IMG/VR virus record: IMGVR_UViG_3300044981_000039
Location: 1-49,601 of that record
Origin: a virus
Length of the DNA: 49,601 nucleotides
Strand: one strand, 5' to 3'
This document shows positions 8,418 to 47,859 of this stretch, one piece after another. Below the pieces are notes generated by a model that made no database searches, was not told the origin of the DNA, and saw nothing but the letters and a program-made list of their open reading frames with translations. The position numbers were made by a program, and so were the translations under genes. Numbering within the stretch: position 1 is the stretch's first letter; the number at the start of each line of letters is the position of its first letter.

Positions 8418-8507
8418 AAATATTTTTGATTTCGCTTTAATTCGTGAATTTAAGGCTTTTCTGATTTTTAAGACCGTCTATCGTTTATAACCACAACCCG
8501 AAAAGTT

Positions 8508-8537
8508 TTCGACAAGTTTTGAACAATACCATATATT
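8508..8537 (+). promoter_or_regulatory. Candidate promoter giving a leaderless or nearly leaderless transcript
   Basis: TTCGAC at 8508-8513 and TATATT at 8532-8537, spacing 18. The ATG of the next gene is only six bases after the -10 box and has no Shine-Dalgarno sequence, so initiation would fall on or beside the start codon. The surrounding 8418-8543 gap is AT-rich and contains CGTTTATAACC (about 8482), similar to the element near 3804. Confidence 0.4.
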
Positions 8538-8543
8538 GCGTCC

Positions 8544-10530: not shown

Positions 10531-10550
10531 AGACCTGCCCGGTTTCTTTT
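10519..10550 (+). terminator. Intrinsic terminator overlapping the stop codon
   Basis: Perfect 9-bp stem ACCGGGCAG (10519-10527) / CTGCCCGGT (10535-10543) with a seven-base loop that contains the TAA stop, followed by TTCTTTT. It lies between the decoration-like gene and the capsid gene. Confidence 0.75.
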
Positions 10551-10572
10551 CTCTTTCAGGGGACGCTAAACA

Positions 10573-11658
10573 ATGAAAACTTCGAGTCGTTACTCCGGAC
10601 GCGCGAAAATGAAGTCGCCGGTTCATAACTTTGGAGCCATGACCGGGCAGGGCCGGCATCGTAAGCAAGGCTACTTCGGAGCGCCGGCGAACTTCGAAGT
10701 CAATGTCCATGATTCCGTGAAGGGGATTACCCGGACGGTCTTGGATAGCGGGGAAAGCGTCTTCTTCCTGCGTGAACTTGAACACATCATGAAGTATGTG
10801 CATGAAGTGGAATACGAAACGCTGAAGGGCCGGAAGTTCGTTCCGGTGAACACCGAAGTTCCGGAAGGCGCGACGAATTGGACCTGGCGTCAATTTGACC
10901 GTGTCGGTATCGCGCGCGTGATTCGCGACTATAGCGAAGACATCGCCCGCGTCGACATCGTCGGCACCGAGTTCTACAACAACCTGATTGTGAGTTTGTC
11001 GGCCGGCTTCGGCTACAACCAACAGGAAATTCGCTCGGCTCAATACACCGGCCTTCCTTTGGATGCCCGCCGGGCTGCGACTGCTGCTGAATCCATCCGT
11101 CGCCTGGAAGATGATTTGATCTTCTTTGGTGATGCGCGGACGAACTTGGGTGGGTTCATTAACAATGCCAACATGACGGAAATCACGCTCACGGCCGATG
11201 GCGCGGGAAGCGTGGTTAACTGGTCGGCCAAGACCGCCGATCAAATCCTTCGCGACTTGAACCAGATCGCGAACACGATCGTTGCGGATACGAAAGAAGT
11301 GGAGATCCCGGATACGATGATCTTCCCGACTTCGGAATTCCAGTTGATCGCGACCAAGCGCATTGGCGTCGACAGTAACATGACCGTCTTGAAATACTTC
11401 CTCGAAACGAATCCGTATATCACGGATATCGATTCTTCGCCGAAGTTGGTCGGAGCTGGCGCGGGTGGAGATGATCGGGTTCTTTGCTACCATCGCGACA
11501 AGACGAAATTGGAAGTGATTATCCCGATGGACATCAAGCAATACGAGCCGGAGAAACGCGGCCTGGAATATATCGTCGACATGGAAAGCCGTTTTGGCGG
11601 TGTCGCGGTATACAAGCCCCTTTCGATGGCCTATACCGACCTTCCGTCCGGCGACTAA
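10573..11658 (+). CDS. Major capsid protein (DUF2184-like, HK97 fold)
   Basis: 361 aa. The pattern fits DUF2184 capsids: an N-terminal arm, then REVEYETLKGRKFVPV-like strand (here HEVEYETLKGRKFVPV near 80), a helical spine with WRQFDRVGIARVIRDY, the segment EDDLIFFGDARTNLGGFIN near 180-200, and a C-terminal MESRFGGVAVYKPLSMAY. Length and position after scaffold and decoration genes agree. Flanked by strong terminators on both sides, consistent with very high expression. Ribosome binding site AGGGGA. Confidence 0.9.
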   Translation: MKTSSRYSGRAKMKSPVHNFGAMTGQGRHRKQGYFGAPANFEVNVHDSVKGITRTVLDSGESVFFLRELEHIMKYVHEVEYETLKGRKFVPVNTEVPEGATNWTWRQFDRVGIARVIRDYSEDIARVDIVGTEFYNNLIVSLSAGFGYNQQEIRSAQYTGLPLDARRAATAAESIRRLEDDLIFFGDARTNLGGFINNANMTEITLTADGAGSVVNWSAKTADQILRDLNQIANTIVADTKEVEIPDTMIFPTSEFQLIATKRIGVDSNMTVLKYFLETNPYITDIDSSPKLVGAGAGGDDRVLCYHRDKTKLEVIIPMDIKQYEPEKRGLEYIVDMESRFGGVAVYKPLSMAYTDLPSGD

Positions 11659-22456: not shown

Positions 22457-22809
22457 GCATCATTCTATGCACAGCCGAAGGCGATTTCGATATGACGTCC
22501 GGCAATATGCAGTTGACGGACGGACAGCAAGAAACCCTTCAGTTGTTGCGGAATACGCTTCGTTTTTTTTTAGGTGAAGAGGAATTGGATACGTCGATCG
22601 GGATGCCCTGGATTCAGGTAATTTTTCAGAAGGGGACGCCCCAAGCGACGATTCAAAGCATCATTTATCAGGCGATCTTGAATTGCCCAGGCGTTATTTC
22701 GGTGACGAACTTCAGCATTACGATCAATAACGCGGCTAGGAATTTGACAGTATCGTTTACGGCCCAAAGTGCGGCGGGACCGATTCCTTTTAACGAGACT
22801 TTCCCATGA
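22453..22809 (+). CDS. Baseplate wedge protein (gp25/gpW-like)
   Basis: 118 aa from a GTG that overlaps the spike stop (GTGA). The conserved segment QETLQLLRNTLRFFLGEEEL, the IGMPW turn and FSITINNAARNLTVSFTAQS match gp25-like lysozyme-fold wedge proteins. Ends with an ATGA overlap on the J-like gene. Confidence 0.82.
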   Translation: MSIILCTAEGDFDMTSGNMQLTDGQQETLQLLRNTLRFFLGEEELDTSIGMPWIQVIFQKGTPQATIQSIIYQAILNCPGVISVTNFSITINNAARNLTVSFTAQSAAGPIPFNETFP

Positions 22810-23999
22810 ACGGAAATTTCGGTGTCACAGCAACAGGCTTTATTCCGAAACAACTTTCGGATATCGAATCTCAAATTCAGACGGCATTACAAGGGGACTT
22901 CGGAGCGAACTATACGCTTCAATCCCAAACGCCCGATGGACAGTTGGTTAATCGTTTTTCGCAACAAATGGCGGATGCGTGGCAAGCGATTGAACAGGCG
23001 GTCAATGGATTCTATCCGCAAACAGCAAGCGGGCCAAATTTGGACTTGGCAAATTCTTTGACCAATGTCCCGCGCATCAAAGCAACTGCGACCGTCGTTA
23101 ATGGCGCTTTAGTTCAAGGTGTTCCGGGAACGGGAGTTCCGGCGAATTTCACGATTTATCCGACTTCTAATCCGTCGCTTTTGTTCCAGGTCTATGCAGC
23201 GACTACGATCGGCGGCGGCGGAACCATTAGCGCGTCTTTCGTTTGCGAAACGACCGGGCCGAACGCTATACCGGCGGATACGATTTGGGCCATATCAACG
23301 CCGGTTTCAGGAATAACAGGCGTAACGAATCCAACGGCCGGGCAAACAGGAACGAATGCCGAGTTAGATTCAGCATATCGAGTCCGCGCAGCTCAATATC
23401 GCAACCGCCCAGGCACAGCGACAATGAACGGAATTATCGCGGCGGTAACTGCAACTCCCAATGTCTCGCAAGTGTGGGGTTATGCGAATACTGGTGACAC
23501 GGTCAATAGCTATGGAGATTTGCCGCATTCGGTCCATTTGGTTGTCAGTGGTGGAGCGGATCAAGACGTTGCTAACGCGATTTATGCGGCGGTCGGCGGT
23601 GGAATTAATACCAATGGATCAACGACCGTTGACGTCACGACAAGTCAAAATCAGATTATTCCGATTCATTTCGACCGAATCGAAAATATTCCGGTTTATG
23701 TTGTGGTCAACGTCAATCCGAATACCGCGCCGGCACAAGGTCCGGTCTATCCGACAAACGGCGATGTTTTGATCCAACAGGCCATTGTCGCTTATGCCTT
23801 GACGCAATATCAGCCCGGACAGACGGTCGTCCAAACCGGTCTTTTTACACCGGTCAATACAGTTCCAGGCGTGGCGGATGCGGAGTCCTTGGAAATCTTT
23901 ATCGGCCTTGCGCCGAATCCGGCGGGAACCGCAAACATTCCGATGGCAATCAATCAACTTGCCAGCTTCACGGCTGGCAATATTACGGTGAACAGCTAA
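22806..23999 (+). CDS. Baseplate J-like protein (Mu gp47 / P2 gpJ type)
   Basis: 397 aa. Conserved landmarks: FGVTATGFIPKQLSDIESQI at the start, QTPDGQLVNRFSQQMADAWQ, LDLANSLTNVPRIKATATVV, then the G-x-x-x-E-x-D-x-x-x-R-x-R motif seen here as GTNAELDSAYRVRAAQYRNR, and a C-terminal domain with GDVLIQQAIVAYALTQY. It forms the wedge arms of the baseplate. Overlaps both neighbours. Confidence 0.88.
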   Translation: MNGNFGVTATGFIPKQLSDIESQIQTALQGDFGANYTLQSQTPDGQLVNRFSQQMADAWQAIEQAVNGFYPQTASGPNLDLANSLTNVPRIKATATVVNGALVQGVPGTGVPANFTIYPTSNPSLLFQVYAATTIGGGGTISASFVCETTGPNAIPADTIWAISTPVSGITGVTNPTAGQTGTNAELDSAYRVRAAQYRNRPGTATMNGIIAAVTATPNVSQVWGYANTGDTVNSYGDLPHSVHLVVSGGADQDVANAIYAAVGGGINTNGSTTVDVTTSQNQIIPIHFDRIENIPVYVVVNVNPNTAPAQGPVYPTNGDVLIQQAIVAYALTQYQPGQTVVQTGLFTPVNTVPGVADAESLEIFIGLAPNPAGTANIPMAINQLASFTAGNITVNS

Positions 24000-24550
24000 T
24001 GGGATACGCGGCAAACATGATGGCGGGAACCGCCCAACAATTCCAAAATGCAGCGAACTATACGGCGTTCGTGAATGCCTTTGGCGCGCAGTTAGACGAT
24101 ATCTTGGAAGCCACGATCCAGGTTTTGACGGAACTGTTTATCCCGAACGCTGTTGGAGCACAGTTGGACGCATTAGGCGTTGAATTAGGGTTGCCGCGCG
24201 CTTCTTTGAGCGATGCGGATTATATGGCGGCACTTCAAATGATGATTCGGGCCTATCAATCGGAAGGATCGATTGAGGACTTGATTCAAATCATGTTGGG
24301 TTTTGGTGGGGCCTCTTCGGTCCAAGTAGTCCAACAGGCACATGCAAACGCCAATATCACGATTACAGGGATTGATGCCACGCCGCTTTATAGCGATCAA
24401 CAAACGGCTTCGATCCTTCGCCGTTCGGCGGTTGCCGGAGTTGGCGTTCAAGTGCAAATTGGCTCGCATCTTCCGACTTTTCAGTTTGATAAGCCGGTGT
24501 CGGGAAATAACGCGGGCCTGGATCAAGGCCACGCTTTAGGGAGTTTCTAA
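23999..24550 (+). CDS. Baseplate protein (DUF2612-like / gpI position)
   Basis: 183 aa. Family-like segments are GAQLDALGVELGLPRASLSD, YMAALQMMIRAYQSEGSIED and a strand ITITGIDATPLYSDQQ. DUF2612 proteins follow the J-like gene and link baseplate to tail fibre. Its first base overlaps the stop of the J-like gene. Confidence 0.75.
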   Translation: MGYAANMMAGTAQQFQNAANYTAFVNAFGAQLDDILEATIQVLTELFIPNAVGAQLDALGVELGLPRASLSDADYMAALQMMIRAYQSEGSIEDLIQIMLGFGGASSVQVVQQAHANANITITGIDATPLYSDQQTASILRRSAVAGVGVQVQIGSHLPTFQFDKPVSGNNAGLDQGHALGSF

Positions 24551-24551
24551 A

Positions 24552-25937
24552 ATGTCGAATCCTATTTTACCGCCAAACAGTCCTTCCGTTTGGGATGCCA
24601 ATGGGGTTAATTCCACGGCTCCGGATGCAGGGCATTTAAACGACGGATATGTGGTCGACGAAGTCCCTTCAAGTTCGGTTTGGAATTGGCTGTTCAATAA
24701 TTTCTCGGCTTGGTTGACCTGGTTTCAATTTCGCTTCCCGTTGATGTTGGGCGGATCCGCACAAACGGCCATTATTTTAAGTGCAGGGAATAACCAGATC
24801 ACGCCGGCAAATTCCAATATCAGCTTTGGATCTGGAACCGGGACCGTCACGGATATTTTGCCGACAAACTTTAAGCCTGGTTCCGGTTCTTCATTTGGAA
24901 CTTTAGTGATTCAAGGTGGGGGTGGTGGGACAGGCATCTTGGCACATGGAATCGGGACGACCTGTCCAATCTATTTAGCGACTCAAAGTAATGTCGTGGT
25001 TGCAAACTCACAAGATTTCGTTGTCCTTCAGTTGAACAACGCAGGAAACGCTTGGTATGAAGTGAGCCGTTCCGTTAGTTTGGGCGGTATTGGCAAAGAA
25101 ACTTTTCAGGCCCGTTTAACTGGAACGACAGGTGTCGCTGTTTCTCCTACGGATAACAACAACATCGCGAATCTTTATTTAACGCCCTACAAGGGAAATA
25201 CGATTTCCCTTTTCAATGGAACAAATTGGCAAGCTTTCAATTTGAGTGCGGACCTTTCCCTAGCGGTTCCCGCAACGACATTGACGGTTTACGACGTCTT
25301 TGTTTCACAGACAGGCGGTGTTTTGAGTTTGAATGCGATTGCTTGGGGAGCGACAAACAGCCGGTCGACACCTTTAGCAATGCAAAATGGAATTTACGTC
25401 AATAGCGCGAATACGAGTCAACGTTATGTCGGTTCGTTTATGACTGGCGGAACTTCCGGGCAGACGAAGGATTCCAGGGCCTTTCGCTATATCTGGAATT
25501 ACTACAACCGCATTCGGCGTGCTATGGAATTTCATGAAGCAACCGCAACTTGGTCCTATTCGTCCCAAACGATCCGGAATTCCAACAATGATGCTAATGC
25601 TCAATTAGATTTTGTTGTCGGGGTCATGGAGGACGAAATTTTGATCCGGGCTTTTGGTTGCTGTTCCAGCACATCTGCAACCGGTATTGGATTTCAAACC
25701 TCGATCGCGATCAACGGAGTCAACATTTCGGGATCCACGACATTCGGTTTGACTCCAAATGTAACGGCAACGGAAACCACACCTGCCCAAGCCCAGGCAT
25801 CTTTTCTTTTGGATGCAAATTCGATTGTGGCGGGACGGACAACGGCAGCTTGGACAGAAGCAAACGGTCAAAGTTCCGGGACTTTGACTTGGTATGGAAA
25901 CCAGAATTCCGGAATCTTTGGCGAACTTTTAGCCTAA
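24552..25937 (+). CDS. Putative tail fibre protein
   Basis: 461 aa, Gly/Asn/Ser/Thr-rich and beta-rich. The N terminus (SNPILPPNSPSVWDANGVNS, then VWNWLFNNFSAWLTWFQFR) looks like a baseplate-attachment segment; residues 70-170 have a repetitive beta pattern with GGGGGTG; the C-terminal 250 residues form a possible receptor-binding domain. Position at the end of the baseplate block supports a fibre. No signal peptide, in contrast with the next two secreted proteins. Adhesion specificity cannot be inferred. Confidence 0.65.
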   Translation: MSNPILPPNSPSVWDANGVNSTAPDAGHLNDGYVVDEVPSSSVWNWLFNNFSAWLTWFQFRFPLMLGGSAQTAIILSAGNNQITPANSNISFGSGTGTVTDILPTNFKPGSGSSFGTLVIQGGGGGTGILAHGIGTTCPIYLATQSNVVVANSQDFVVLQLNNAGNAWYEVSRSVSLGGIGKETFQARLTGTTGVAVSPTDNNNIANLYLTPYKGNTISLFNGTNWQAFNLSADLSLAVPATTLTVYDVFVSQTGGVLSLNAIAWGATNSRSTPLAMQNGIYVNSANTSQRYVGSFMTGGTSGQTKDSRAFRYIWNYYNRIRRAMEFHEATATWSYSSQTIRNSNNDANAQLDFVVGVMEDEILIRAFGCCSSTSATGIGFQTSIAINGVNISGSTTFGLTPNVTATETTPAQAQASFLLDANSIVAGRTTAAWTEANGQSSGTLTWYGNQNSGIFGELLA

Positions 25938-25955: not shown

Positions 25956-27227
25956 ATGAAACGGGTATTCGCATTTTTAGCGACGCTTTTCTTGGCGACG
26001 ACGCTTCGATCGGCGGTAACGCTTGATTCGAGTGCTTCGTTTGACAATGTCACATCCGCCGCGTTTACGAACGGCGGGAGCTATCACACGATGCTATTGG
26101 TAGGTGTTTTTACAGACGGCGCTTCATTAGGCCAACTGGAAAGCGTGTCCTACGGCGGAACTTATCTAGCCCAACAAAGCGTAGGCGGCAATTTGAGCAC
26201 ATCCGCTTATTGGTTTTCTTTAGCTGCACCTGCGACCGGAAGCAATACGGTCTATATCAATTTTGCCAATATGCCGACCGACTATCATTTTGTGATCGCG
26301 GCCTATGATGGAGTTGCGGGGATTGGATCGGTTGATAGCGGTTCGGCCTACAACGCTTCAATCACATTTGGCGGCGAAGCGGTTTCGGGATCTTGGTCGG
26401 CTTATATTTCGGGAGTTTATTCGGCAACGTCTGCTCCTAGTGTGACGAATACAGCAATTACGATTCGTCAAAGTGAGACACAAACGGCGGAATCCTATAT
26501 TTACGGTGATACCACGTTCACGGCTTCACAGAATTTTTCGGTCACTGGTCCGGCGGCTTTTTCTTTAGCTGGCGCAATGGTTGAACTTCAGGCCCAAGCC
26601 AATACTCCGACTTATTCGCCGACAATTTCCGCGACTGTGACTCCTACAAATACGCCGAGTATTAGTGCAACGAATACTCCGACCGCGACGCCCAGTAGAA
26701 CGCCGACTTGGACTCCGACACCAAGTCCGACTTCGACTCGAACCATGACGTTTACTTTCAGTCCGACAGCTACACCAACGTCAAGTCCTACGCTTACGAC
26801 TTCTCCGACTTTAACACCTTCTCCAACGTCTTCAACGACTCCAACTTCAACGCCGACTTGGACTCCGACAACGACTCCAACTTCGACACCTGGGCAGCAA
26901 CTTTGGAGCGCCTACGGAGTCTTGACGGATGATTTGCGGCCGGCGAATTGCACTGATATCAATTTCAATTCGACGAACGCTTGGACCTTCGCGGCCAGTG
27001 GATGCACAACGCAACCTTGCCGCGCATCCATTTACGTTCCACAGACCGCGACCTATACGTTTACGTATTGGCTTTCGCTTCTGTCTACGACTCCGACGGT
27101 CCACGGGGCGGACCTGATTCCGGGAGCGTCGGCGACGCTTCAGTTGAGGCCGTCGGAGAACATTTGGTATAAGGAAGGCGTTGCCAGCAATGTTTCGGCA
27201 TCCGGACAAGTCTGCAACAACTACTAA
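25956..27227 (+). CDS. Exported protein with beta domain, TPT-rich linker and C-terminal domain
   Basis: 423 aa. The N terminus MKRVFAFLATLFLATTLRSA is a good Sec signal peptide (basic start, hydrophobic core, small residues at the cleavage site). Residues 21-212 are a beta-rich, lectin-like domain; a related one appears to lie at about 776-1003 of the 1209-aa protein. Residues about 214-313 are almost only Thr, Pro, Ser and Ala. Residues 314-423 form a small Cys-containing C-terminal domain. AAAGGAGAAG gives strong translation. Phage virion proteins are not normally exported, so this may be secreted or displayed on the infected cell. Function unknown. Confidence 0.7.
   Translation: MKRVFAFLATLFLATTLRSAVTLDSSASFDNVTSAAFTNGGSYHTMLLVGVFTDGASLGQLESVSYGGTYLAQQSVGGNLSTSAYWFSLAAPATGSNTVYINFANMPTDYHFVIAAYDGVAGIGSVDSGSAYNASITFGGEAVSGSWSAYISGVYSATSAPSVTNTAITIRQSETQTAESYIYGDTTFTASQNFSVTGPAAFSLAGAMVELQAQANTPTYSPTISATVTPTNTPSISATNTPTATPSRTPTWTPTPSPTSTRTMTFTFSPTATPTSSPTLTTSPTLTPSPTSSTTPTSTPTWTPTTTPTSTPGQQLWSAYGVLTDDLRPANCTDINFNSTNAWTFAASGCTTQPCRASIYVPQTATYTFTYWLSLLSTTPTVHGADLIPGASATLQLRPSENIWYKEGVASNVSASGQVCNNY
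26598..26895 (+). repeat. Degenerate Thr-Pro-rich coding repeat
   Basis: About 100 codons of degenerate repeats such as ACTCCGAC and ACGCCGAC encode TPT/SPT/TPS units. Comparable stretches lie at 28318-28456, 29628-29868 and 30553-30720 in the next large gene. They encode extended, flexible linkers and offer sites for recombination between the two genes. Confidence 0.8.
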
Positions 27228-27236
27228 GAGGAAACC

Positions 27237-27539
27237 ATGACCGTCAAAGATGTTAAAGATCCGGGAGAAGCCGATTTTTCGCTTGGCCCTTTCCATTTAA
27301 TTTTAAGCGGAAAGCTTGCGTATCAATCGCTTGCCGTTTGTTTATTTCTTTTGGCGGGAGGGTGGGTCCAAAGCCAAATTATGACTGAACTGCGTTTGAT
27401 GCGCCGGGACATCTTGGATACAAAGATTGATGTCCAGGCGCTTATCGAAGCAATGCCAGCATCACAACAGGAAGAGTTAAAAAAGGACATTGCAGAGAAA
27501 CAAGCCGTTCTTAATTTGGCGCAACAGGTTCAGAGATAA
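27237..27539 (+). CDS. Small membrane protein, holin or spanin candidate
   Basis: 100 aa. One membrane segment at about 29-47 (LAYQSLAVCLFLLAGGWVQS) is followed by a long charged helix with heptads (LRLMRRDILDTKIDVQALIE) to the end. One transmembrane helix with a C-terminal coiled coil could suit a spanin or a type III holin, but no family is recognised. It lies between two exported-protein genes, and its stop overlaps the next start (taATG). Confidence 0.55.
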   Translation: MTVKDVKDPGEADFSLGPFHLILSGKLAYQSLAVCLFLLAGGWVQSQIMTELRLMRRDILDTKIDVQALIEAMPASQQEELKKDIAEKQAVLNLAQQVQR

Positions 27540-30500
27540 TGTTGGATACTGGATTTAGTTCAATGCGTTTTTATGAAGTTTCTAGCCTAGGCTTCTGGCC
27601 AATGCTAGGAATTACTTTATTCCTACTTTGCTTCTTAGGATCGATTTGGCTAATTACATTCGGAATTATGAAGAAGTTTGGTCTCTTAGCTTTATTGCTT
27701 ATTGGCTTAGCTTCCTCAGCTCATGCTGCAACGCTCGTTGCACATTATCCCTTAGTTTCAAATGCAACGGACATTTCCGGTAATGGCTACAACGGGACCG
27801 CGACAGGCTCTATCCAATATCAGACGATAGCTGGATCGGCTTGCGTTGAGATTGCCAATACAACTTCATATATCGCACTTCCTTCGGGATTTTTGACGGC
27901 CTGGGGGCCAGCAGGGAATTCCTGGGAGGTGGATGCTTCCGTTTACATCACAGCTACAGCAGCTCCGAATAGCATCTGTTCTTGGATTGCCAATTCAGGA
28001 CAGTGCGGCGGGAACTTGCTTGTTCAAGCCACGACTTCAAATTATTTTGGCATTGAGGCCCCAGGCGGGGGCACTTGCATTGATATTTTCAACAGCACTG
28101 GAATTCCGGCGACAACTTGGACGCAAGTTCGGGTCATTTGGAATGGGACGAATTTCGAGACCGCTTACAACGGGACTTATAATTACTCGACGACTTCAAA
28201 TGGAAGCTACGCGACGACCGTCATTTCGGCGATCATCGGAAATTATTGCGGCTCTGCGAACTATGGATTTCAAGGATACCTACACGATCTTTATTTTTAC
28301 AATGGGATTCAAAATCCACCGCCAAGTCCAACGCCTAGTGATACTTCGACTTATACGCCGACGAATACCCCTTCACCCACAGTAAGCCCAACAGTGACCA
28401 TTACGCCTTCAAGAACTCCGACGTTGACAGCAAGTCCGACGCCAACTTCGCTGGTGACTTACGTTCCAGCGGCTCCAAATGGGTTATTGACTTCTTCGTA
28501 TCATGGCTTTAATTGCATGACCATGACGAGTCAGGCGATGGGTTCTTTGATCACGGATGCGGTCAATGGCGGCTATATTTCGGCTGGCTATACTTGGATG
28601 CATTGGGATGCAGGATGGGCTCAGACGACACGCGATGTAAACGGAAACTTGCAGGGGGTTTCTGGAATCAGTTTAAGCTTCACAGCAGCAGCGGCCCATG
28701 CGGCGGGAATGAAGTTCGATGTTTATATAAGCGCCGGAACTTTAAGCTGCCCTTCTCCAACAGGACAATACAGCATTGGAAGTTACCAAAGTGAATACAA
28801 AGATTTGGCCTATCTTTCAAGTCAAGGTGTGGACGGCGTCGCTATCGATACATGCAGCATTACTTCCGATCCGAATTTCAACCTTCAAAACGAAATGAAT
28901 CTTTTCAGTGCGGCAGCGGCAGCTTGCCCGAATCCCATGTGCACCTTCTATTGGGGAAACACTTTTTATTCATGGCTTCCTAGCACTGGATTTAATACGT
29001 GGTTTGAAGATAGTGGCCCATTGAGCTACAACGATATCATTACGCACGGGCTCGGTGCCCAAACAAATAGCTCTTACAACGTTGCTTCTCCTCTTCAGAC
29101 AGGGGCCGATGAATGGATTTTAGATACTAACGCCATGCCGATGCTATCCGACAATTGGGGTCGCGTTCAATATGATATGTGGAGCATGTCACATTCTCAG
29201 ATTGTTGATTCCTTAGCCCATGTGGATTTGAGTGCGACGAGCGCCGCACAAAAAGCATATCTCCAAAATCCAATTATTTTAAAGCAACTGGATCAAGACC
29301 CGGCACTTTTGCCCTGCTATCGCGATACTGCCGACGGAAATGCTTCAAGCTTAGCTTTGGCAACTTCAGTTTCCCCTACGAGCAATGCTTGGTTCGTTCA
29401 ATTCGTGAATACGAGCACCGGGGCCAGCACGAATATTCCAATGGCAACAACCAATATTCCTGGAATGTCAAGCGGACCTTTTTGGGTTACGAATGCGAAT
29501 CTGGCAGGGACAGGTTCTTCTGGGGCCTATCTTGGTGAATACTCAAACGCTTACACTTTCGCCTATCTCTCGGGATCGGCAGTTTCCAGCGTTGGTAGTG
29601 ATGTAGTGCTTTTGCTGAATTTCAATTCACCTTCACCAACTTTTACAGATACGATTTCTCCGACTTTTACGAATACGCCTCCTTATACGGCAACGCCAAC
29701 ATATACCGCCGTTTGCCACACAACCGTAACTTCAACTTTCACGACATCGCCAAGCTTCACTTCGTCGCCGACTTTTTCTTATTCGCCAACTTCAACTTTG
29801 ACTCCGACTGAAACCACGACTCCAACTCCGATTAATAGTCCGACGTCGACTGTGACTCCGGCGATTATGACATTTATTACTGGAACGGCGGCTTGTGGAT
29901 CTTTAATTACGGCCTTAACAACTGGAAATGGAGTTACCCATACGGCCTTAATTGTTATCCCAAATAATAACGATGGGCTTTCTTATACTTTTAACGCAGT
30001 AACTTGGGATGGATTATCTTTTACTAAAGTTTTTGATACAGGAAATTTAGCTAATGGCGAGGGCTACGAAGCGGATACTTCAATTTGGATTTTACTAAAT
30101 CCACCATCAAATACGGCCTCTAATGTCACAGTTACAGTTAGCGGTTCCGATTTACCTATCGATGGAATTACGGCTTTAGAATATTCAAACGTTTATATTT
30201 ATAATGGTCCATCCGGAATTTATAAACAGCTCAATTTATTGAATCAATTAGGGATACAAGGCGGAGCACTTGCCTTGACCTTTACGGCAAATTATCCAGG
30301 TGGAATTTATGGATTTGGATCTGGTGGAACTATTTTGGGATGGACTGGTTATAATCAATCCAATGTTTTGACACAATGGAATTTTGATCAAAGTTTTGTG
30401 AATCGAATTATGAGCACTTGTGGTTCGAGTTCAACTTTGAATTCGATTTCAATTCAAGATTATTCTGAATACAACATTAATTATGATGTTTCTTATACTG

Positions 30501-31168
30501 CATCTTTGACGCCTGGAATATTTGTTGCCGGCGCTTTTGAAATTGCGCCTTTTATGACGCCGACCTTTAGTCAATCGCCGACCTGGTCGATTACTCCAAC
30601 CATTACTGAAACCGCTACTCCTACCCCGACCGTTCCGACACAAACGGCAACAATTTCTCCAACTCCAACGAATTCCTTTACGGTCACTTCGACATATTCA
30701 CCTTCACCTACGCCACAATGCCAGCCAATCGGAAATATAAATACAACGTCGTATAGCTTCAATGCTTACGACACGACGATTTTAAAAGGAATTACGATTT
30801 CAGCATTCTGCAATGCCTATCAATATTTCGACGATATTTCGGTTTATGTGGCGTCTGGATCCGGGAAACTTTACGGAGCGATTTATCAGACAACAGCAAG
30901 TTATCCGAATTTGCTTTATACAACGATGGTTACGGAAGCCACGCCCGGAGCCTGGAATACCTTACCGGCTAGTATCGGGCCAATTTCACCTATGAATCCC
31001 GGATATTATTTGATCGCGGTCCAAGGAAGTGGGAATGTCAATTTCTCATTCGGGCTTCCGGGGAATGACCAATATTTCAATGGTCAATTTGGCTTCTTCC
31101 CGTTTATCATCAATCCACAAAATGAGGAAATTAATACTTCGCTTTACGCAACCTTCTGTTATGAGTGA
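27539..31168 (+). CDS. Large exported multidomain protein with LamG-like and GH27-like domains
   Basis: 1209 aa. Residues 44-63 (MKKFGLLALLLIGLASSAHA) form an ideal signal peptide, preceded by a 43-residue extension with a transmembrane helix. Residues 64-258: LamG-like lectin domain. Residues 260-305: TPT linker. Residues 306-695: a TIM-barrel glycosidase resembling GH27 alpha-galactosidases (AGYTWMHWDAGWAQTTRDVN, AAGMKFDVYISAGTLSCPSP, SQGVDGVAIDTCS, where the Asp aligns with the family nucleophile). Residues 697-776: linker. Residues 776-1003: second beta domain. 1005-1060: linker. 1061-1209: C-terminal domain, perhaps carbohydrate binding. Likely degrades or binds host surface polysaccharide. 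The true start may be 27668. Confidence 0.75.
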   Translation: MLDTGFSSMRFYEVSSLGFWPMLGITLFLLCFLGSIWLITFGIMKKFGLLALLLIGLASSAHAATLVAHYPLVSNATDISGNGYNGTATGSIQYQTIAGSACVEIANTTSYIALPSGFLTAWGPAGNSWEVDASVYITATAAPNSICSWIANSGQCGGNLLVQATTSNYFGIEAPGGGTCIDIFNSTGIPATTWTQVRVIWNGTNFETAYNGTYNYSTTSNGSYATTVISAIIGNYCGSANYGFQGYLHDLYFYNGIQNPPPSPTPSDTSTYTPTNTPSPTVSPTVTITPSRTPTLTASPTPTSLVTYVPAAPNGLLTSSYHGFNCMTMTSQAMGSLITDAVNGGYISAGYTWMHWDAGWAQTTRDVNGNLQGVSGISLSFTAAAAHAAGMKFDVYISAGTLSCPSPTGQYSIGSYQSEYKDLAYLSSQGVDGVAIDTCSITSDPNFNLQNEMNLFSAAAAACPNPMCTFYWGNTFYSWLPSTGFNTWFEDSGPLSYNDIITHGLGAQTNSSYNVASPLQTGADEWILDTNAMPMLSDNWGRVQYDMWSMSHSQIVDSLAHVDLSATSAAQKAYLQNPIILKQLDQDPALLPCYRDTADGNASSLALATSVSPTSNAWFVQFVNTSTGASTNIPMATTNIPGMSSGPFWVTNANLAGTGSSGAYLGEYSNAYTFAYLSGSAVSSVGSDVVLLLNFNSPSPTFTDTISPTFTNTPPYTATPTYTAVCHTTVTSTFTTSPSFTSSPTFSYSPTSTLTPTETTTPTPINSPTSTVTPAIMTFITGTAACGSLITALTTGNGVTHTALIVIPNNNDGLSYTFNAVTWDGLSFTKVFDTGNLANGEGYEADTSIWILLNPPSNTASNVTVTVSGSDLPIDGITALEYSNVYIYNGPSGIYKQLNLLNQLGIQGGALALTFTANYPGGIYGFGSGGTILGWTGYNQSNVLTQWNFDQSFVNRIMSTCGSSSTLNSISIQDYSEYNINYDVSYTASLTPGIFVAGAFEIAPFMTPTFSQSPTWSITPTITETATPTPTVPTQTATISPTPTNSFTVTSTYSPSPTPQCQPIGNINTTSYSFNAYDTTILKGITISAFCNAYQYFDDISVYVASGSGKLYGAIYQTTASYPNLLYTTMVTEATPGAWNTLPASIGPISPMNPGYYLIAVQGSGNVNFSFGLPGNDQYFNGQFGFFPFIINPQNEEINTSLYATFCYE

Positions 31169-31178
31169 GGGATAAATC

Positions 31179-31769
31179 ATGGGCGCTTTAAAAACTTACG
31201 GAACTTCGCGCGGACTTCGGAATCATAATCCGACGAATCAACGGATCTTACCCAACAAACAGACTTGGGATGGACAGGCCCAAGGGCCAGCCGGGATAGA
31301 TAATTCAAAGGGCGGCCCCTTCTGTATCTTTGAAGACTTCAACGGTAAGGAAGCGGATTTTTGGGGTCTTCGGGCCGGAGCCAAGAACTTCCGAAGCTAT
31401 CAGACGGTCGACGGATGCGACACTTTTACAAAAATCATTAACCGCCATGCCCCCCCAACAGATAGTAATGACACGACTTCTTACATTGCCTTTGTTTGCA
31501 GCTCGATCAAAGCTAGTCCAAATGCGATTGTGGATCTTTCGAAAAATATCCCTTTATTCCTTTCCTTCATGAAATTTATTTGTAAGGAAGAGGAAGGTAT
31601 TGATCCATATCCGGACACCTTAATTTTAGCGGCAATTCAAGATGCGCTAGGGATTGTGGCAGAGATTGCGACTTCCGCGCCTGTTTTGCCAATTATTCCA
31701 AGTGTGCCAACTCCGACACCAAAAGAAAGTGTTTTGCAAGAAATCGAAGATGATTTGAAGAAACTTTAA
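31179..31769 (+). CDS. Putative muralytic enzyme (virion-associated lysozyme-like)
   Basis: 196 aa. The N-terminal part has the pattern RGLRNHNPTN, then a Trp/Gly segment and FCIFEDFNGKEADFWGLRAG, NRHAPPTDSNDTTSYIAFV and DLSKN, which match the family of phage lytic-transglycosylase-like structural proteins with the RGxRNxNPGN opening. The C terminus ends in PSVPTPTPKES and a short helix. No signal peptide, so it needs a holin or acts from the virion. A shorter, exported relative follows directly. Confidence 0.7.
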   Translation: MGALKTYGTSRGLRNHNPTNQRILPNKQTWDGQAQGPAGIDNSKGGPFCIFEDFNGKEADFWGLRAGAKNFRSYQTVDGCDTFTKIINRHAPPTDSNDTTSYIAFVCSSIKASPNAIVDLSKNIPLFLSFMKFICKEEEGIDPYPDTLILAAIQDALGIVAEIATSAPVLPIIPSVPTPTPKESVLQEIEDDLKKL

Positions 31770-31788
31770 GGGAAAGGAGTTTTAAGAA

Positions 31789-32244
31789 ATGAAGGCTCTA
31801 TTAAGTTTGTTTTTTTTGTTTGCGGTTATGGTTCATGGGCAGACATTAGGAGTTTTAGACAATAACCCAGGCAATATTAGCGCGGACAGCATCAAGGATT
31901 TAAAATATTGGAAAGGCGCAGACGGCTTAGATCCTTATCATCATCTTCACTTTGTAACACCGGAAGACGGAGCCGAGGCCCTTTTAAAGAATCTTAGACT
32001 GTATCGATCCAGGCATGGAATCCATACGATACGTAAAATTATAGGACGGTGGATATGGCGTGGCTTGCCAGTAAGCGAAAGAGAAGCGTATATCCTTTTC
32101 GTATCCCGTCGCTTGCACGTATCGCCAAACTTAAAGCTGGACCTAACGGATCGGGATACCCTTATCGGCGTAGCTCGATCGATCGCCCGTTACGAGTGCG
32201 GGCAAGAATATGGCTCCCTCGATTGGTGGAAGCGGCTTCCATAG
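31789..32244 (+). CDS. Exported muralytic enzyme, paralogue of the preceding gene
   Basis: 151 aa. A signal peptide or signal-anchor (LLSLFFLFAVMVHGQ) precedes DNNPGNISADS, a HFVTPEDGAEALLKNLRLYR segment, RHGIHTIRKIIGRWIWRGL and SPNLKLDLTDRDTLIGVARS. This has the same order as the previous protein (NNPGN, FE-D, I-I-R-x-A/W, LDL). An N-terminal export signal is the hallmark of SAR-type endolysins, so it may act without a classical holin. AAAGGAG gives strong translation. Confidence 0.7.
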   Translation: MKALLSLFFLFAVMVHGQTLGVLDNNPGNISADSIKDLKYWKGADGLDPYHHLHFVTPEDGAEALLKNLRLYRSRHGIHTIRKIIGRWIWRGLPVSEREAYILFVSRRLHVSPNLKLDLTDRDTLIGVARSIARYECGQEYGSLDWWKRLP

Positions 32245-32309
32245 CCCTTTTAGGCGCGGCTTTTGTTGCTTGTCTTTTCTACGTGGCACTTTTAATATTT
32301 AGTCCTTGA
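32055..32309 (+). CDS. Possible overlapping small membrane protein
   Basis: 84 aa from an ATG at 32055, five bases after AGGACGG. The first 50 residues are very basic and overlap the end of the lysin gene in another frame; the last 30 leave the overlap and form one membrane helix (SIALLGAAFVACLFYVALLI). A holin or Rz1-like partner overlapping an endolysin gene would be typical, but the overlapped part looks compositionally like a shadow frame. Keep as a candidate only. Confidence 0.3.
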   Translation: MAWLASKRKRSVYPFRIPSLARIAKLKAGPNGSGYPYRRSSIDRPLRVRARIWLPRLVEAASIALLGAAFVACLFYVALLIFSP

Positions 32310-32335
32310 TAGTTTCGTCCGTAAGAAATACTAAG

Positions 32336-32371
32336 GGCGGGCGATATTCCCGGTATCGTCCGCCTTTTTTT
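32336..32371 (+). terminator. Intrinsic terminator
   Basis: GGCGGGCGATA (32336-32346) pairs with TATCGTCCGCC (32354-32364), 11 bp with one G-T pair and a seven-base loop, followed by seven T. It ends the lysin block. Confidence 0.85.
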
Positions 32372-32394
32372 ATTCCGGGTTTGGAGAAATAAAG

Positions 32395-33129
32395 ATGGAT
32401 GTTTCCGCAACGGCTCAAACGGCAACAATCACGGTTCCGAATATCGCGGGCGCAATCAGCTATCTATACAGCCCGATTGTCGCCATGATTTTCGGTTCAG
32501 TTCTGGTTAGCTTCAAAAGTATTTACAACGAAGTGAAGACGGTTGTTTCGGCCGGCATCGCGTTCTTGGCATCGAAGCAAGGTCAAGCAGAAGTGAAAGA
32601 CGTTACGGCGCTTGCGACCGACCTTCAAGCTGCTATGGCGGACGCAGGGCATCCGGCCCCTGCAAACGTGACGGCGGTTTTGAACGGGCTTTTGTCGCAG
32701 ATCCCCAACGTGGCGCAAATCAAGACGTCTTTGATCTTGGCTTTGATCGGCGCTTCGCTTTTATTTGCTTCAACTGCCAAAGCGGGGATTGATTTTGGGC
32801 CGATCTCGATTAGCCCGACTGCATCTGGAACGGCAACTTTGATTATTGAACCAGCTCTTTCAGCAACTTTCGGGACCATATCAGGTGGTGTCTGGACGCC
32901 TTCACCGGATAAGGCTGGCGGCCTGGACATTCTGTATGGCTTCGGGGCCTATCAGATCGGCCTGGAAGGCGCGTTCGATTACGATTCGAATTCGCAAATT
33001 TTTTATCTTACGGGAGGGATTACGGCGGGCATTGCTCCTTACGGAACCTTGGCGGTTTTGTGGCGAGAGAATGCTTGTCTTTTAGGCTATTCATTACCGA
33101 TAGGGGTCGGAGCGCAAGTCACGCAATAA
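32395..33129 (+). CDS. Membrane protein with internal signal-peptide-like segment and beta C terminus
   Basis: 244 aa. Residues 20-60 contain a membrane segment (YLYSPIVAMIFGSVLVSFKS) and a second weak one; then a helical Ala/Val region to about 108. Residues 111-132 (IKTSLILALIGASLLFASTA, then KAG) would be a perfect signal peptide if the codon ATC were ATG. The rest is beta-rich with aromatic alternation (YGFGAYQIGLEGAFDYDSNS) and could be an outer-membrane barrel or exported domain. It looks like two genes fused by loss of a start. Holin function of the first part is possible but unproven. Confidence 0.55.
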   Translation: MDVSATAQTATITVPNIAGAISYLYSPIVAMIFGSVLVSFKSIYNEVKTVVSAGIAFLASKQGQAEVKDVTALATDLQAAMADAGHPAPANVTAVLNGLLSQIPNVAQIKTSLILALIGASLLFASTAKAGIDFGPISISPTASGTATLIIEPALSATFGTISGGVWTPSPDKAGGLDILYGFGAYQIGLEGAFDYDSNSQIFYLTGGITAGIAPYGTLAVLWRENACLLGYSLPIGVGAQVTQ

Positions 33130-38854: not shown

Positions 38855-39847
38855 ATGCAAGAACAACGCCAAAGAATAAAAACACCGCCTGATAATTATG
38901 GACGTCTTTATATTGCTCTTTTGGAAAGCGACACCACTTCTTTGGCGCGCCTTTGCTATGCGGTTATGTGGAGTTTTGGACAAGATTGTTGGGCTTCAAT
39001 TCCTTCTATAGCTCGGCGGATGAATACCAGTGAAAATACGGTTCGGAAATGTCAAATTGAACTTCAAGGAACACACTGGATTGTTTTGGTGGATTCCAAA
39101 GACGGTGTTGGAAAAACATGGGAGATGCAAACTCCGGAAACAAGAAAAACATTGCTTAATACCCCTTCACCAGGTGAAGGCCTACCCCTTCACGATATGA
39201 AGGGGACCCCTTCACCAGGTGAAGGCCTACCCCTTCACGGCGTGACGTATAAGAAAGAAAGGAATCAAGAACCTAAAGAACTTAAACAAACCGCCGCTAA
39301 CGCGGCGAAGGATCCCGCCAAACATCCGAATCAAGATTCCTGTTGGCTTGGCTTAAAGGCTCTTTGGTCTGAAAGATTTAACGGGGCGGCGCTAAAATGG
39401 CCGGCGATGCATTTTAAAGGCTGGCAGAAGATTTTCACGGAAGCCCTAGAAAGCCTGGGCGAAGCCGAAATTTTAAGGCGTTGGAAAATTTGTATTTATG
39501 ATCCCTGGTCGCGCCCTAGCTTGCGGGTCTTTTTCAATGACCTGGACAAGTGGATGGAAGCGCGGGGTCAATCAGCTCCGGAAGTTTTGGAAGAATATCC
39601 CGCCGGGACTTTTGATCCTGCTAGAGAATGGCGGATCCAATCGAAGAAACACGAATTAGCGCCGGAACAAAATATTAAGTCTTTGATTGAACTCCGCCAA
39701 AAGTGTAAAGGCATTAAGCTTTTGATTGTCTGCGACATGATCGAAGAATATTTCAATGTGGAATTTTACGGCCGGAATGGAAGATCGCTTCGCGCCTTTT
39801 TGAATCAGTTCGAACGCCTTCATGACAAACACAAGGAAAGGGATTAA
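38855..39847 (+). CDS. Replication initiation protein with internal origin repeats
   Basis: 330 aa. Residues 10-75 resemble the winged-helix of phage replication initiators (WASIPSIARRMNTSENTVRK). Residues 100-130 encode a Pro/Gly-rich linker with the peptide TPSPGEGLPLH twice, arising from DNA repeats. The C-terminal 170 residues (CWLGLKALWSERFNGAALKW, FNDLDKWMEARG) resemble the loader-contacting half of lambda O/DnaD-type proteins. GGAG lies eight bases before the ATG. Placing the origin inside the initiator gene is the lambda O arrangement. Confidence 0.75.
   Translation: MQEQRQRIKTPPDNYGRLYIALLESDTTSLARLCYAVMWSFGQDCWASIPSIARRMNTSENTVRKCQIELQGTHWIVLVDSKDGVGKTWEMQTPETRKTLLNTPSPGEGLPLHDMKGTPSPGEGLPLHGVTYKKERNQEPKELKQTAANAAKDPAKHPNQDSCWLGLKALWSERFNGAALKWPAMHFKGWQKIFTEALESLGEAEILRRWKICIYDPWSRPSLRVFFNDLDKWMEARGQSAPEVLEEYPAGTFDPAREWRIQSKKHELAPEQNIKSLIELRQKCKGIKLLIVCDMIEEYFNVEFYGRNGRSLRAFLNQFERLHDKHKERD
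39161..39239 (+). repeat. Candidate replication origin: two 34-bp exact repeats rich in dyads
   Basis: The 34 bases at 39161-39194 recur exactly at 39206-39239. Each contains CCTTCACCAGGTGAAGG (8-bp arms) and two CCCCTTCA octamers; between them is CCCCTTCA-CGATA-TGAAGGGG (39185-39205), another perfect dyad. In all, four direct CCCCTTCA and three inverted copies of its TGAAGG core lie within 80 bases. This matches iterons bound by an initiator dimer. Confidence 0.75.
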
Positions 39848-42804: not shown

Positions 42805-43112
42805 GTTTCTTTTCTACAGCCGCGATTGAATCCGCTTTTTGGATTTTGCTTTGGACTGTCTTGATTCTGGCTTTGATTTGCGAAGCGATCGGCATTCATT
42901 TGCTTTGGAAGCAATCCAGAAAAGAGAAGCCCTTGCATCCTTTTATTTCGGCGGCATACCTAGTGAACGAAGCGAAAAGGCGACAAGAAATTTTGAAAGA
43001 ATTTTATGGCAACGTTGCTTTTGATTTAGTGCCGAAAGAATTAACTTTGGCGCAAAAGATTCGTCAAAGCTGGAAAGAATTTAATCGAAATGGCGGCCTT
43101 AATGAAAAATAA
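42801..43112 (+). CDS. Single-pass membrane protein
   Basis: 103 aa. A strong membrane helix at about 11-35 (FWILLWTVLILALICEAIGI), followed by a basic cytoplasmic helix with NEAKRRQEILKEFYG. Lies between the resolvase and the HerA-like ATPase, overlapping both (23 bases with the latter). Could anchor or regulate the ATPase, but nothing proves this. Confidence 0.5.
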   Translation: MSFFSTAAIESAFWILLWTVLILALICEAIGIHLLWKQSRKEKPLHPFISAAYLVNEAKRRQEILKEFYGNVAFDLVPKELTLAQKIRQSWKEFNRNGGLNEK

Positions 43113-44841
43113 GATTGGAGTTTTCCAAGATGTGAAGGCGAAGAAGTCGGTCGGCATTGAACTGGACCGTTTGGTTTCAAGTCGCGCTTTGGTCATGGCG
43201 TCTTCCGGCGGTGGAAAATCCTATTTGCTCCGAAAGTTGATTGAAACGCTTTACGGACAGATTCAAATCATTGTCTTGGATGCAGAAGGCGAATTTTCTT
43301 CGATGCGAAAGGATTATGACTTTGTCGTGGCTGGCAAAGGCGGAGATATTGCGGCAAGTCCGCATTTGGCCGCGACTTTGGCGCGCCGTTGCCTGGACCT
43401 AAAGTTCAATTTGATTGCCGATCTTTACGAACTTCCGAAACATGATGTTCGCGGACAGGACCGCGTTCAATTTGTGAAGAATTTTTTGGATGCCTTGGTC
43501 GATGCGCCGAAGGAACTTTGGCATCCGGTCCTTATCATTCTTGACGAAGCCCATGAGTTTGCGCCGGAGTCTGGCAAATCATCTAGCTTAGAAGCGGTAG
43601 CAGCTTTGGCGTCACGCGGGAGGAAGCGCGGATTTTGCCTTATCGCTGCAACGCAGCGTATGAGTAAGTTCCATAAGGATGTTGCTGCCGAACTCCAAAA
43701 TAAATTAATTGGTTTGGCGAATATGGATATTGATCGGAAGCGCGCGGCCGATGAACTTGGTTTCGCGAATAAAGCGGAAGTTTTAAGTCTTCGCGATCTT
43801 GGTCCAGGCCAATTTTATACCGTTGGACCGGCCTTCAGTGAAAAAGGCGTTGTCCTTGTCGATGTTGACGAACCTGCTACGCGGCCGGCGAAGACCGGAA
43901 AGGCCATGTCTTTAACGCCAGCTCCGACAGCTAAAATTAAGGCAATGCTTTCCCAATTGGCGGATCTTCCTAAGGAAGCAGAACAGGAATTGAAGGATGT
44001 TCAAGCTTTGAAAGAGAAAGTTAAAGGCTTGGAATTGGCTTTGAAGATGCAAGCGGCGGTGAAACATATTCCGCCACAACCGAAGATTGACGAAAAGGCA
44101 TTGGAAAAAATTCGGGCCGAGATCCAAAAGATCGGATTGAAAAAGTTTAAAGATGAAATGATTAAAATGAAAAGTTCTTTGAATAATTTTATTTCCGATC
44201 ATTACGCGGATGCTATGACGCGGCTTGGAATCGAAAGTGTCGATTTAAAAGTAACGGCCGCGCCTTTTGATATGAATATTAAGCCGGTAAATAAGAATCC
44301 GGATAATTTTATGAAACGTTTTAGCGATGGAATGCCAGAAGTAACAAAAGTTATGTCGATAAATTATGAAATAGGCGAAGGAGTTGAAAAAGTTTTAGGA
44401 AAATGCGAACGGGCAATCCTTTCGGTTTTAGCCTTACGGCCTGGACATCCGTTTTCAAAATCGATGGTCGCGGCTCGATCCGGCTATAGTCATACTTCTA
44501 GCAGCTTCAAAAATTGCGTTTCGAAGCTTGTAACGCTCCGATATGTTGGTCGCCAAGGTTCAGGTTTGTATTTGGAGTCGAATGCGCCAATTCAAGGTTT
44601 GGTCATGCCGCAACTGAACACGATCCAAGATTGGATTCCAAAGCTTGGGAAATGTGAAAAGGAAATTGTTCAGATGATGTTATTTGCTCCGCAAAATGTT
44701 TGGTCGAAGGAGGATGTTGCTCACAAAACCGGCTATTCGGTTACGTCTTCAAGTTTTAAAAATTCTTTAAGTCATTTAGCAACGCTCGGATTGATTGTTC
44801 GCATTAGTGTTGGTATCCAAATTAATCCCGAACTTCTTTAG
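43090..44841 (+). CDS. HerA/FtsK-like ATPase with tandem winged-helix C terminus
   Basis: 583 aa. Walker A ASSGGGKS (about 37-44), a VLDAEGEFSSM segment that fits the HerA loop, Walker B LIILDEAHEFAP (about 147-158) and the ATQRMSK motif with its catalytic Gln/Arg near 200. Residues 305-400 are a charged helix. Two repeats at the end (ILSVLALRPGHPFSKSMVAA..., and IVQMMLFAPQNVWSKEDVAH) each continue with a winged-helix pattern containing TSSSFKN. HerA-like motors pump or translocate DNA and usually work with NurA-type nucleases; no NurA gene is recognised here. Role in phage DNA processing is inferred. Confidence 0.75.
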   Translation: MAALMKNKIGVFQDVKAKKSVGIELDRLVSSRALVMASSGGGKSYLLRKLIETLYGQIQIIVLDAEGEFSSMRKDYDFVVAGKGGDIAASPHLAATLARRCLDLKFNLIADLYELPKHDVRGQDRVQFVKNFLDALVDAPKELWHPVLIILDEAHEFAPESGKSSSLEAVAALASRGRKRGFCLIAATQRMSKFHKDVAAELQNKLIGLANMDIDRKRAADELGFANKAEVLSLRDLGPGQFYTVGPAFSEKGVVLVDVDEPATRPAKTGKAMSLTPAPTAKIKAMLSQLADLPKEAEQELKDVQALKEKVKGLELALKMQAAVKHIPPQPKIDEKALEKIRAEIQKIGLKKFKDEMIKMKSSLNNFISDHYADAMTRLGIESVDLKVTAAPFDMNIKPVNKNPDNFMKRFSDGMPEVTKVMSINYEIGEGVEKVLGKCERAILSVLALRPGHPFSKSMVAARSGYSHTSSSFKNCVSKLVTLRYVGRQGSGLYLESNAPIQGLVMPQLNTIQDWIPKLGKCEKEIVQMMLFAPQNVWSKEDVAHKTGYSVTSSSFKNSLSHLATLGLIVRISVGIQINPELL

Positions 44842-46676: not shown

Positions 46677-46732
46677 TGCCCCGCGACAGCGCCGAGAGGA
46701 TTGTGAGTTTTAAAAAGGAGAATGGGAAATGA
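46676..46732 (+). CDS. Possible 18-codon leader peptide
   Basis: 18 aa (MPRDSAERIVSFKKENGK). The ATG overlaps the HNH stop by one base, has GGAG five bases upstream and ends in an ATGA overlap on the next gene. Too small to judge by composition; a translationally coupled leader is plausible. Confidence 0.3.
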   Translation: MPRDSAERIVSFKKENGK

Positions 46733-47859
46733 AAAAGATTGAGAAGTTAAGCGAAGATCAAGAAGCGCAACTAGCGGTCTATCGTGATCGAGGCCTTAAG
46801 TTTGGACTTCGCACCGAAGGACTTGATAGACCGAAAGCCGAAGAAGCGGTTGCCGAACTCTATCAAGCTGCTGGATTAAAAGCGCCTTGCATGATTTGGT
46901 GCCTTTCCCCTTTTTCTGCCGAACTCACGATCAATATTTTGAAGAATATGAAAAACTGCCCCTCGATTGGGGACAGCGTGAGGGCCAGCGTGAGGGCCAG
47001 CGTGAGGGACAGCGTGAGGGCCAGCGTGGTGGCCAGCGTGGTGGCCAGCGTGAGGGACAGCGTGAGGGCCAGCGTGAGGGCCAGCGTGAGGGCCAGCGTG
47101 GGGGACAGCGTGTGGGACAGCGTGGGGGACAGCGTGAGGGACAGCGTGTGGGACAGCGTGAGGGCCAGCGTGTGGGCCAGCGTGTGGGACAGCGTGAGGG
47201 ACAGCGTGGGGGCTCTAAAAATGGAAGTTCACGGCCGCCTTTATGCTGATCCGGAAGCCGGTTGGTATTATTGGTATCTTTATTACCGTGACGTTCTCAA
47301 GTTGGACTTCTCGAAACTGGATCAAGTTAAGCTCAACGCGTGGTGGAATTTCGTGGAATCCTGCCATTGGATTTTCCCATTCGCTAACACTTGCTTTCTA
47401 GTCGAATCGCCTGAATTTGTGAAACTAGAAAATAGGGTGATCCACAACGAAAAGGGAATGGCCGTCAAGTATCGTGACGGATGGGGTGTTTGGGCAATCC
47501 AAGGCGTCCGAGTCACGGAACAAATCGTGATGATGCCCGAGACCTTGACTTTGGATCAAATCGAAAAGGAGTCGAACGTTGAAGTAAGGCGCATTATGAT
47601 TGAACGATTCGGCTATGAAAGATATTTGGTAGAGTCCAAGGCCGAGTGCATCGACTTCAGCGCAGGGCTTGGTTTGATTGGCTCGGCTCCAAGGGCTCTC
47701 TATCGCTTGAGCAAGGGAGAGAAAATTTTGTTCGGGACGGACGGTTCGACGAAGAGACCTTACTTCATGTCTGTTCCAAGCGAAGCGAATACCTGTTCAG
47801 AGGCCCACAGGTTGATTAGTGGCCTCGATAACGAAAACCGCATTTTAGTGGAGTGCTAA
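46729..47859 (+). CDS. DUF6745-like protein with a [AD]SV[RWGV] repeat domain
   Basis: 376 aa, good AAGGAG eight bases before the ATG. Residues 1-80: helical, with EAVAELYQAAGLKAPCMIWC. Residues 82-161: twenty tetrapeptides alternating ASVR, DSVR, DSVW, ASVW and similar, coded by an exact 12-base period. Residues 162-376: a conserved-looking region with WYYWYLYYRDVLKLDFSKLD, HWIFPFANTCFLVESPE and a late LIGSAPRALYRL. Proteins with these features (DUF6745-like) are found in environmental bacteria and phages and have no known role; the next gene is its usual partner. Domain name is from recall. Confidence 0.6.
   Translation: MKKIEKLSEDQEAQLAVYRDRGLKFGLRTEGLDRPKAEEAVAELYQAAGLKAPCMIWCLSPFSAELTINILKNMKNCPSIGDSVRASVRASVRDSVRASVVASVVASVRDSVRASVRASVRASVGDSVWDSVGDSVRDSVWDSVRASVWASVWDSVRDSVGALKMEVHGRLYADPEAGWYYWYLYYRDVLKLDFSKLDQVKLNAWWNFVESCHWIFPFANTCFLVESPEFVKLENRVIHNEKGMAVKYRDGWGVWAIQGVRVTEQIVMMPETLTLDQIEKESNVEVRRIMIERFGYERYLVESKAECIDFSAGLGLIGSAPRALYRLSKGEKILFGTDGSTKRPYFMSVPSEANTCSEAHRLISGLDNENRILVEC
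46972..47211 (+). repeat. Twenty 12-bp tandem repeats
   Basis: Unit GNCAGCGTGNGG. Only a few positions vary: C/A in GCC/GAC (Ala/Asp), and the last codon (AGG, TGG, GGG, GTG: Arg, Trp, Gly, Val). AGC-GTG (Ser-Val) is invariant in all 20 units. Copy number is probably unstable. Confidence 0.9.

Follow-up and report, generated by a model that had tools for sequence, protein, structure and literature searches.

Llp of T5 and Cor are small lipoproteins through which phages bring about superinfection exclusion; they are exported and act at the host surface. The known sugar-degrading proteins of phages are either carried on the virion or released at burst and lack export signals. PghP and LevP of Bacillus phage phiNIT1 are soluble non-virion depolymerases of the latter kind, with PghP being a late protein absent from the virion (PMC6966330), and phage GH32 enzymes related to this group are also devoid of a signal peptide (PMC4595243). 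Outside the phages, the MAT fibre proteins of Bdellovibrio are signal-bearing, exported, and equipped with glycan-binding tips (PMC10769870). For the endolysin of phage Enc34, Glu131, Trp79, and Tyr95 have been described as site residues (PMC8943055). In contrast to the sugar-degrading phage proteins, the gene cluster analyzed here combines predicted Sec signals with lectin-like and glycoside hydrolase (GH)-like domains.

The cluster is located in an IMG/VR record of 49,601 bases, referred to in its full length as the window, which stems from an environmental tailed virus of bacteria, a myovirus. Profile searches identified the left part of the record as a myovirus structural module with genes for terminase (4636), portal (6097), head maturation protease (8544), major head protein (10573), sheath (16124), and tape measure (18619), followed on the plus strand by a gpJ-like baseplate wedge (22806–23999; phrog_6, E = 7.8e-51) and a gpI-like baseplate protein with DUF2612 (23999–24550; PF11041 and several baseplate PHROGs). 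Directly after the gpI-like gene lies a tail fibre or spike gene without signal peptide (24552–25937, plus strand), whose tblastn match was the tail spike of Pseudanabaena phage Pam5 (E = 1e-6). The cluster extends from this gene to the SNF2-type helicase gene that starts at 33381 on the replication side, and its genes are tightly spaced and all oriented in one direction. A strong intrinsic terminator (32333–32367, plus strand; a 16-pair stem with a T run after it) closes the fibre-lysis unit, and by its arrangement the cluster up to this point reads as a single late fibre-plus-lysis operon. An assembly chimera was ruled out, as the gene of the large protein B described below lies between fibre genes and lysis genes. 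The phage search at the DNA level yielded no match. Elsewhere in the window, the strand opposite the major head protein gene contains an open frame of 512 aa (10003–11541, minus strand), which is probably a composition effect. The replication half of the phage encodes a HerA-like (DUF87) ATPase (43090–44841). A 23-bp tandem repeat (39160–39238; 3.5 copies) lies within gene 38855–39847, and about 20 copies of a 12-bp repeat (46970–47213) in the gene of a DUF6745 protein (46729–47859) give rise to a run of SVRA/SVWD/SVGD tetrapeptides.

The gene next to the fibre (25956–27227, plus strand; AAGGAG ribosome site) encodes protein A, which has 423 aa and consists of a signal-like N-terminus, a beta-type domain, a Thr/Pro/Ser linker of about 100 aa (residues 214–320), and a C-terminal domain. 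Both modules lacked a family match in the Pfam and PHROG profile searches, and homologs of the protein were detected neither in phages (tblastn) nor in IMG/VR by a single-protein scan that reaches close relatives only. A PDB match (8zvk) was discounted because it covers only the linker. Protein B (27539–31168, plus strand) has 1,209 aa, or 1,166 aa if translated from the ATG at 27668, and contains a transmembrane (TM)/signal region, a LamG_3 domain, a GH27-like domain, and two beta domains, with linkers of Thr, Pro, and Ser at residues 254–313, 694–781, and 1002–1065. This linker style resembles that of candidate phyla such as Elusimicrobiota or Goldbacteria, at most a tentative pointer to the host. 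The reading frame of B opens at 27539, 43 codons before 27668, in a TAATG overlap with the preceding stop; if translation started there, the signal would be the second of two hydrophobic segments, and with either start cleavage after SAHA would be plausible. The 43-codon hydrophobic segment (27539–27667) has a G + C content of 36%, deviates in base composition, and is fused in frame before the signal; in gene 32395 a TM part likewise precedes an internal signal.

The preliminary description had reported lectin-like and GH-like domains joined by TPT linkers, and this layout was borne out. LamG_3 (residues 134–256 of B) scored 29.6 bits against a Pfam cut-off of 27.6 when the domain was searched alone, and 26.4 bits, under the cut-off, within the whole protein. 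The GH27/melibiase-like domain (28472–29647, plus strand; approximately residues 313–700 of B) matched Melibiase_2 (PF16499) with 28.4 bits (curated cut-off 23; E = 1.3e-6) and rice alpha-galactosidase (1uas; phmmer, 1.1e-6), and tblastn matched it to genes on plasmids from Streptomyces and haloarchaea, including one with an alpha-galactosidase annotation. In the alignment, Asp437 of B within GVAIDTC pairs with KYDNC and corresponds to rice Asp130, the catalytic nucleophile, and the DQDP motif is present. The second Asp of IDD, the Lys of KYD, the acid/base motif WRTTGD, and WNDPDM are changed; in the places of the acid/base and substrate motifs B shows WFEDSG, WDAG, AID, and YNVASP. Melibiase_C was not detected in B by the Pfam search. 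Because most active-site motifs are lost, enzymatic activity of the domain is doubtful, and it should be regarded as a GH27 homolog and not be called an alpha-galactosidase. The earlier label “polysaccharide-active” thus holds only as far as one GH27-like domain with its nucleophile Asp goes. The last two modules of B had no family match. GC3 values of the modules range from 24 to 47%, a spread as in a protein that may have been assembled by domain gain from parts of different origin. No homolog of B was found in phages by tblastn; single-protein scans, covering close relatives only, revealed no relatives of the GH domain and the last domain in IMG/VR, and none of the GH domain in genomes either. 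AlphaFold without an alignment modeled the GH domain with a pLDDT of 32. A match of B to phrog_15511 disappeared when the GH domain was searched alone and was probably caused by linker composition.

Export signals were scored with a home-made n/h/c-region scorer, which evaluates n-region charge, hydrophobic core, and cleavage-site residues, and for which shuffled N-termini exceed a score of 3.0 in 2.4% and of 3.9 in 0.6% of trials. The four Sec signal-like segments proposed earlier, at 25956, 27668, 31789, and about 32725, are all present according to this scorer. The signal of B (27668–27727, plus strand) is very good (score 4.69; MKKFGLLALLLIGLASSAHA before ATL), and those of 31789 (score 3.62; MKALLSLFFLFAVMVHG before QTL) and of an internal segment that starts at GTG 32710 and includes position 32725 (score 4.27; MAQIKTSLILALIGASLLFASTAKA before GIDF) are good. 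These three clearly display a positive n-region, a hydrophobic core, and an AXA-type site. The segment of protein A (25956; score 2.69; MKRVFAFLATLFLATTLRSA) has a good hydrophobic core and a poor cleavage site, with Arg at −3 or Ser at −1. All four signals fall within one run of seven of the approximately 52 genes, for which the chance is about 0.006 with position allowed for. The other matches of the scorer in the window (48689, 46729, 41786, and 14699) look like false positives. A search of the plus strand between 24000 and 34000 for a lipobox gave no credible candidate. Predicted Sec export of A and B is the better supported half of the reading favored below, the role in glycan recognition or modification being suggested by domain type only.

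Lysin candidates and small membrane proteins had also been suspected in the cluster, and both were recovered. Two genes on the plus strand, 31179–31769 (phrog_873, 5.6e-26) and 31789–32244 (phrog_873, 3.5e-23), code for paralogous Enc34-type (PHA02564) proteins, only the second of which carries an N-terminal signal. The solved Enc34 endolysin (7q47) was matched by 31789 only (9.2e-5), whereas 9vvp was matched by both. Trp79, Tyr95, and Glu131 are all present in 31789; in 31179 the Tyr and Glu are present and the Trp is replaced by His. Both products are putative muralytic Enc34-type endolysins, and the signal of 31789 fits an exported endolysin. Vibrio phage D526 has the identical order of fibre followed by endolysin, and a single-protein scan for close relatives of 31789 in IMG/VR retrieved none. 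An overlapping ORF of 84 aa with a C-terminal TM segment (32055–32309, plus strand; TM 63–81) is possibly spurious but might also encode a small lysis protein. Between A and B, a gene without Pfam or PHROG match (27237–27539, plus strand) encodes a 100-aa protein with one TM segment (21–39) and a helical tail, a holin or i-spanin-like candidate. The last gene of the cluster (32395–33129, plus strand) encodes a 244-aa protein (TM 20–38 and 106–124) with an N-terminal TM segment and helices, the internal signal (32710–32784, ending in AKA before GIDF), and a beta-rich C-terminal part; AlphaFold without an alignment predicted a helical and then beta structure at low confidence (pLDDT 42), and tblastn gave no phage match. 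Both this product and that of 27237 resemble membrane proteins of the holin/spanin type. Given the lysins, the TM proteins, and the terminator, much of the supposed island, about half of it, is an ordinary lysis cassette, and since 31789, 27237, and 32395 fit lysis, neither a glycan nor a superinfection role needs to be invoked for them. The original export-and-glycan reading is therefore restricted to the large products, for which export, the domains, and the link to lysins are supported by the sequence; the block of superinfection suggested along with it is speculative.

For comparison with related phages, alignment of the head protein provided approximately 80 IMG/VR relatives with 35–43% identity. 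The baseplate wedge gene, used as flank to locate the equivalent slot, was matched in 31 of 50 related records tested, and the slot downstream of it could be read in 27 relatives. Related phages have lysis genes in this position. In two of the 27 slots, L106 (record G041) and L107 (record G009), the fibre gene is immediately followed by genes for large proteins with a signal (748 and 253 aa in L106, 242–260 and 638 aa in L107; scores 3.93–4.97), and the remaining 25 have none. The first signal-bearing proteins of both share a short module (K.FE.D.GL..NPK...FA.DGVN) that is fibre-like by eye, an identity for which PHROG, Pfam, and phage matches provided no support. L107 has an additional signal-bearing protein of 214 aa (8279–8923, minus strand), several genes downstream of the lysis genes, whose motif is also fibre-like by eye. 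No homology to A and B was detectable in the slot proteins of L106 and L107, and Melibiase_2 occurs in none of the 50 related records. As the slots were picked after the signals in L106 and L107 had been seen, a Fisher test of slot enrichment is descriptive only. The recurrence of exported genes, proposed earlier as a check, was thus seen for the position in two distant relatives but not for the proteins themselves. The slot seems to take up predicted exported proteins recurrently, though rarely and with differing content. A broader generalization, in which the post-fibre position is a recurrent myovirus site for Sec-exported proteins built of adhesive or lectin modules that coat or edit host receptors as a secreted counterpart of the fibre, and thereby mask the surface on behalf of the phage, appears rather doubtful.

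The interpretation favored here, with moderate confidence, sees A and B as accessory proteins that are not part of the virion, leave the cytoplasm via Sec, and act on glycans of the host, with their genes placed in a late operon next to an ordinary lysis cassette. Exported, host-style modular proteins would have been inserted into the segment between tail fibre and lysis genes. After late synthesis, A and B would be translocated by Sec with removal of their signals and would finally reside in the periplasm or outside the cell as non-virion accessories; no anchor was found in either. Glycans on the host surface or in the matrix would serve as ligands for their LamG and beta modules, and the GH27-like module would either bind such glycans as well or trim them. 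Progeny could thereby re-adsorb less to debris and dying cells or spread more easily, while the two lysins (one exported, one cytoplasmic), 27237, and 32395 would accomplish ordinary lysis. This interpretation is supported by the clustered signals, the LamG_3 and Melibiase_2 scores over their cut-offs, the endolysin residues, the gene spacing and terminator, the GC3 spread, the proteins following the fibre in L106 and L107, and the late, non-virion precedent of PghP and LevP. Thr/Pro/Ser linkers between domains, a layout of secreted carbohydrate-active enzymes and not of trimeric fibres, support it further. Against it stand the poor cleavage site of A and the possible start of B at 27539, which may produce a two-TM N-terminus. 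Also, B perhaps lacks enzymatic function owing to the degenerate GH27-like site, Sec by itself would lead no further than the periplasm in a host with two membranes, and comparable proteins occur in only two of 27 relatives and are unrelated to A and B. As phage homologs of A and B are lacking in the tblastn searches, no conservation argument for their function can be made.

Depolymerases that include lectin or GH domains are frequent on virions. A and B might be virion proteins, in the form of accessory fibres or spikes that combine glycan-binding with hydrolase modules; their hydrophobic N-termini would then be membrane-active or attachment segments rather than export signals. Their position directly after the tail fibre in the structural operon agrees with this, as does the module in L106 and L107 that resembles fibre modules by eye. 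It is nevertheless unlikely, considering the near-ideal signal peptidase I site formed by the n-, h-, and c-regions of B, the secreted-enzyme layout of linkers, LamG, and GH27, and the dedicated fibre without signal already encoded at 24552. Less probable still is that the gene of B, perhaps together with that of A, acts as an auxiliary metabolic gene and provides an exported enzyme with which the infected cell obtains sugars from polysaccharide in its environment. The homology to GH27 alpha-galactosidases with NEW3/CBM partners and the soil viruses reported to possess functional GH and chitosanase genes (PMC6786970, PMC9485262) would be compatible with such a function, but the late position next to lysis genes leaves little time for feeding, the active site is degenerate, and no metabolic gene is among the neighbors. 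That the whole cluster is a lysis cassette, with all signals and TM segments on lysis factors and with A and B disrupting the periplasm or outer membrane, is improbable despite the two endolysins, the TM proteins, the terminator, and the lysis genes in the same slot of related phages, because no spanin or holin is known to make use of LamG, GH27-like, or long linker modules, and the relatives lyse without them.

If A and B are indeed exported non-virion accessories, the phage would alter the exterior of its host via the host secretion route before lysis, beyond what virion enzymes or release at burst achieve. Judging from the proteins of L106 and L107, the post-fibre site could be a place to search for phage proteins that are exported and act on receptors, and that would escape virion proteomics. 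Among the systems introduced above, the Llp and Cor lipoproteins differ from A and B by their lipobox, and the MATs are bacterial trimeric beta-prism fibres, whereas A and B have flexible linkers; identity with MATs was rejected, as the PDB search gave no MAT match for A or the L106 and L107 proteins. The Enc34 endolysin has a C-terminal two-TM domain, whereas here one paralog is soluble and the other has an N-terminal signal. With GH27 alpha-galactosidases B shares about 280 aa of homology including the nucleophile Asp and DQDP, and it departs from them in the altered motifs and the undetected Melibiase_C. Like PghP and LevP, which degrade polymers, A and B are phage-encoded and apparently host-derived, but they belong to other families, and B combines a lectin and a GH module with linkers, whereas PghP and LevP are single-module proteins. 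Because PghP and LevP are released at burst and the related GH32 enzymes lack signals, the signal-bearing lectin/GH27-like protein predicted here would be a variant on the known soluble phage depolymerases.
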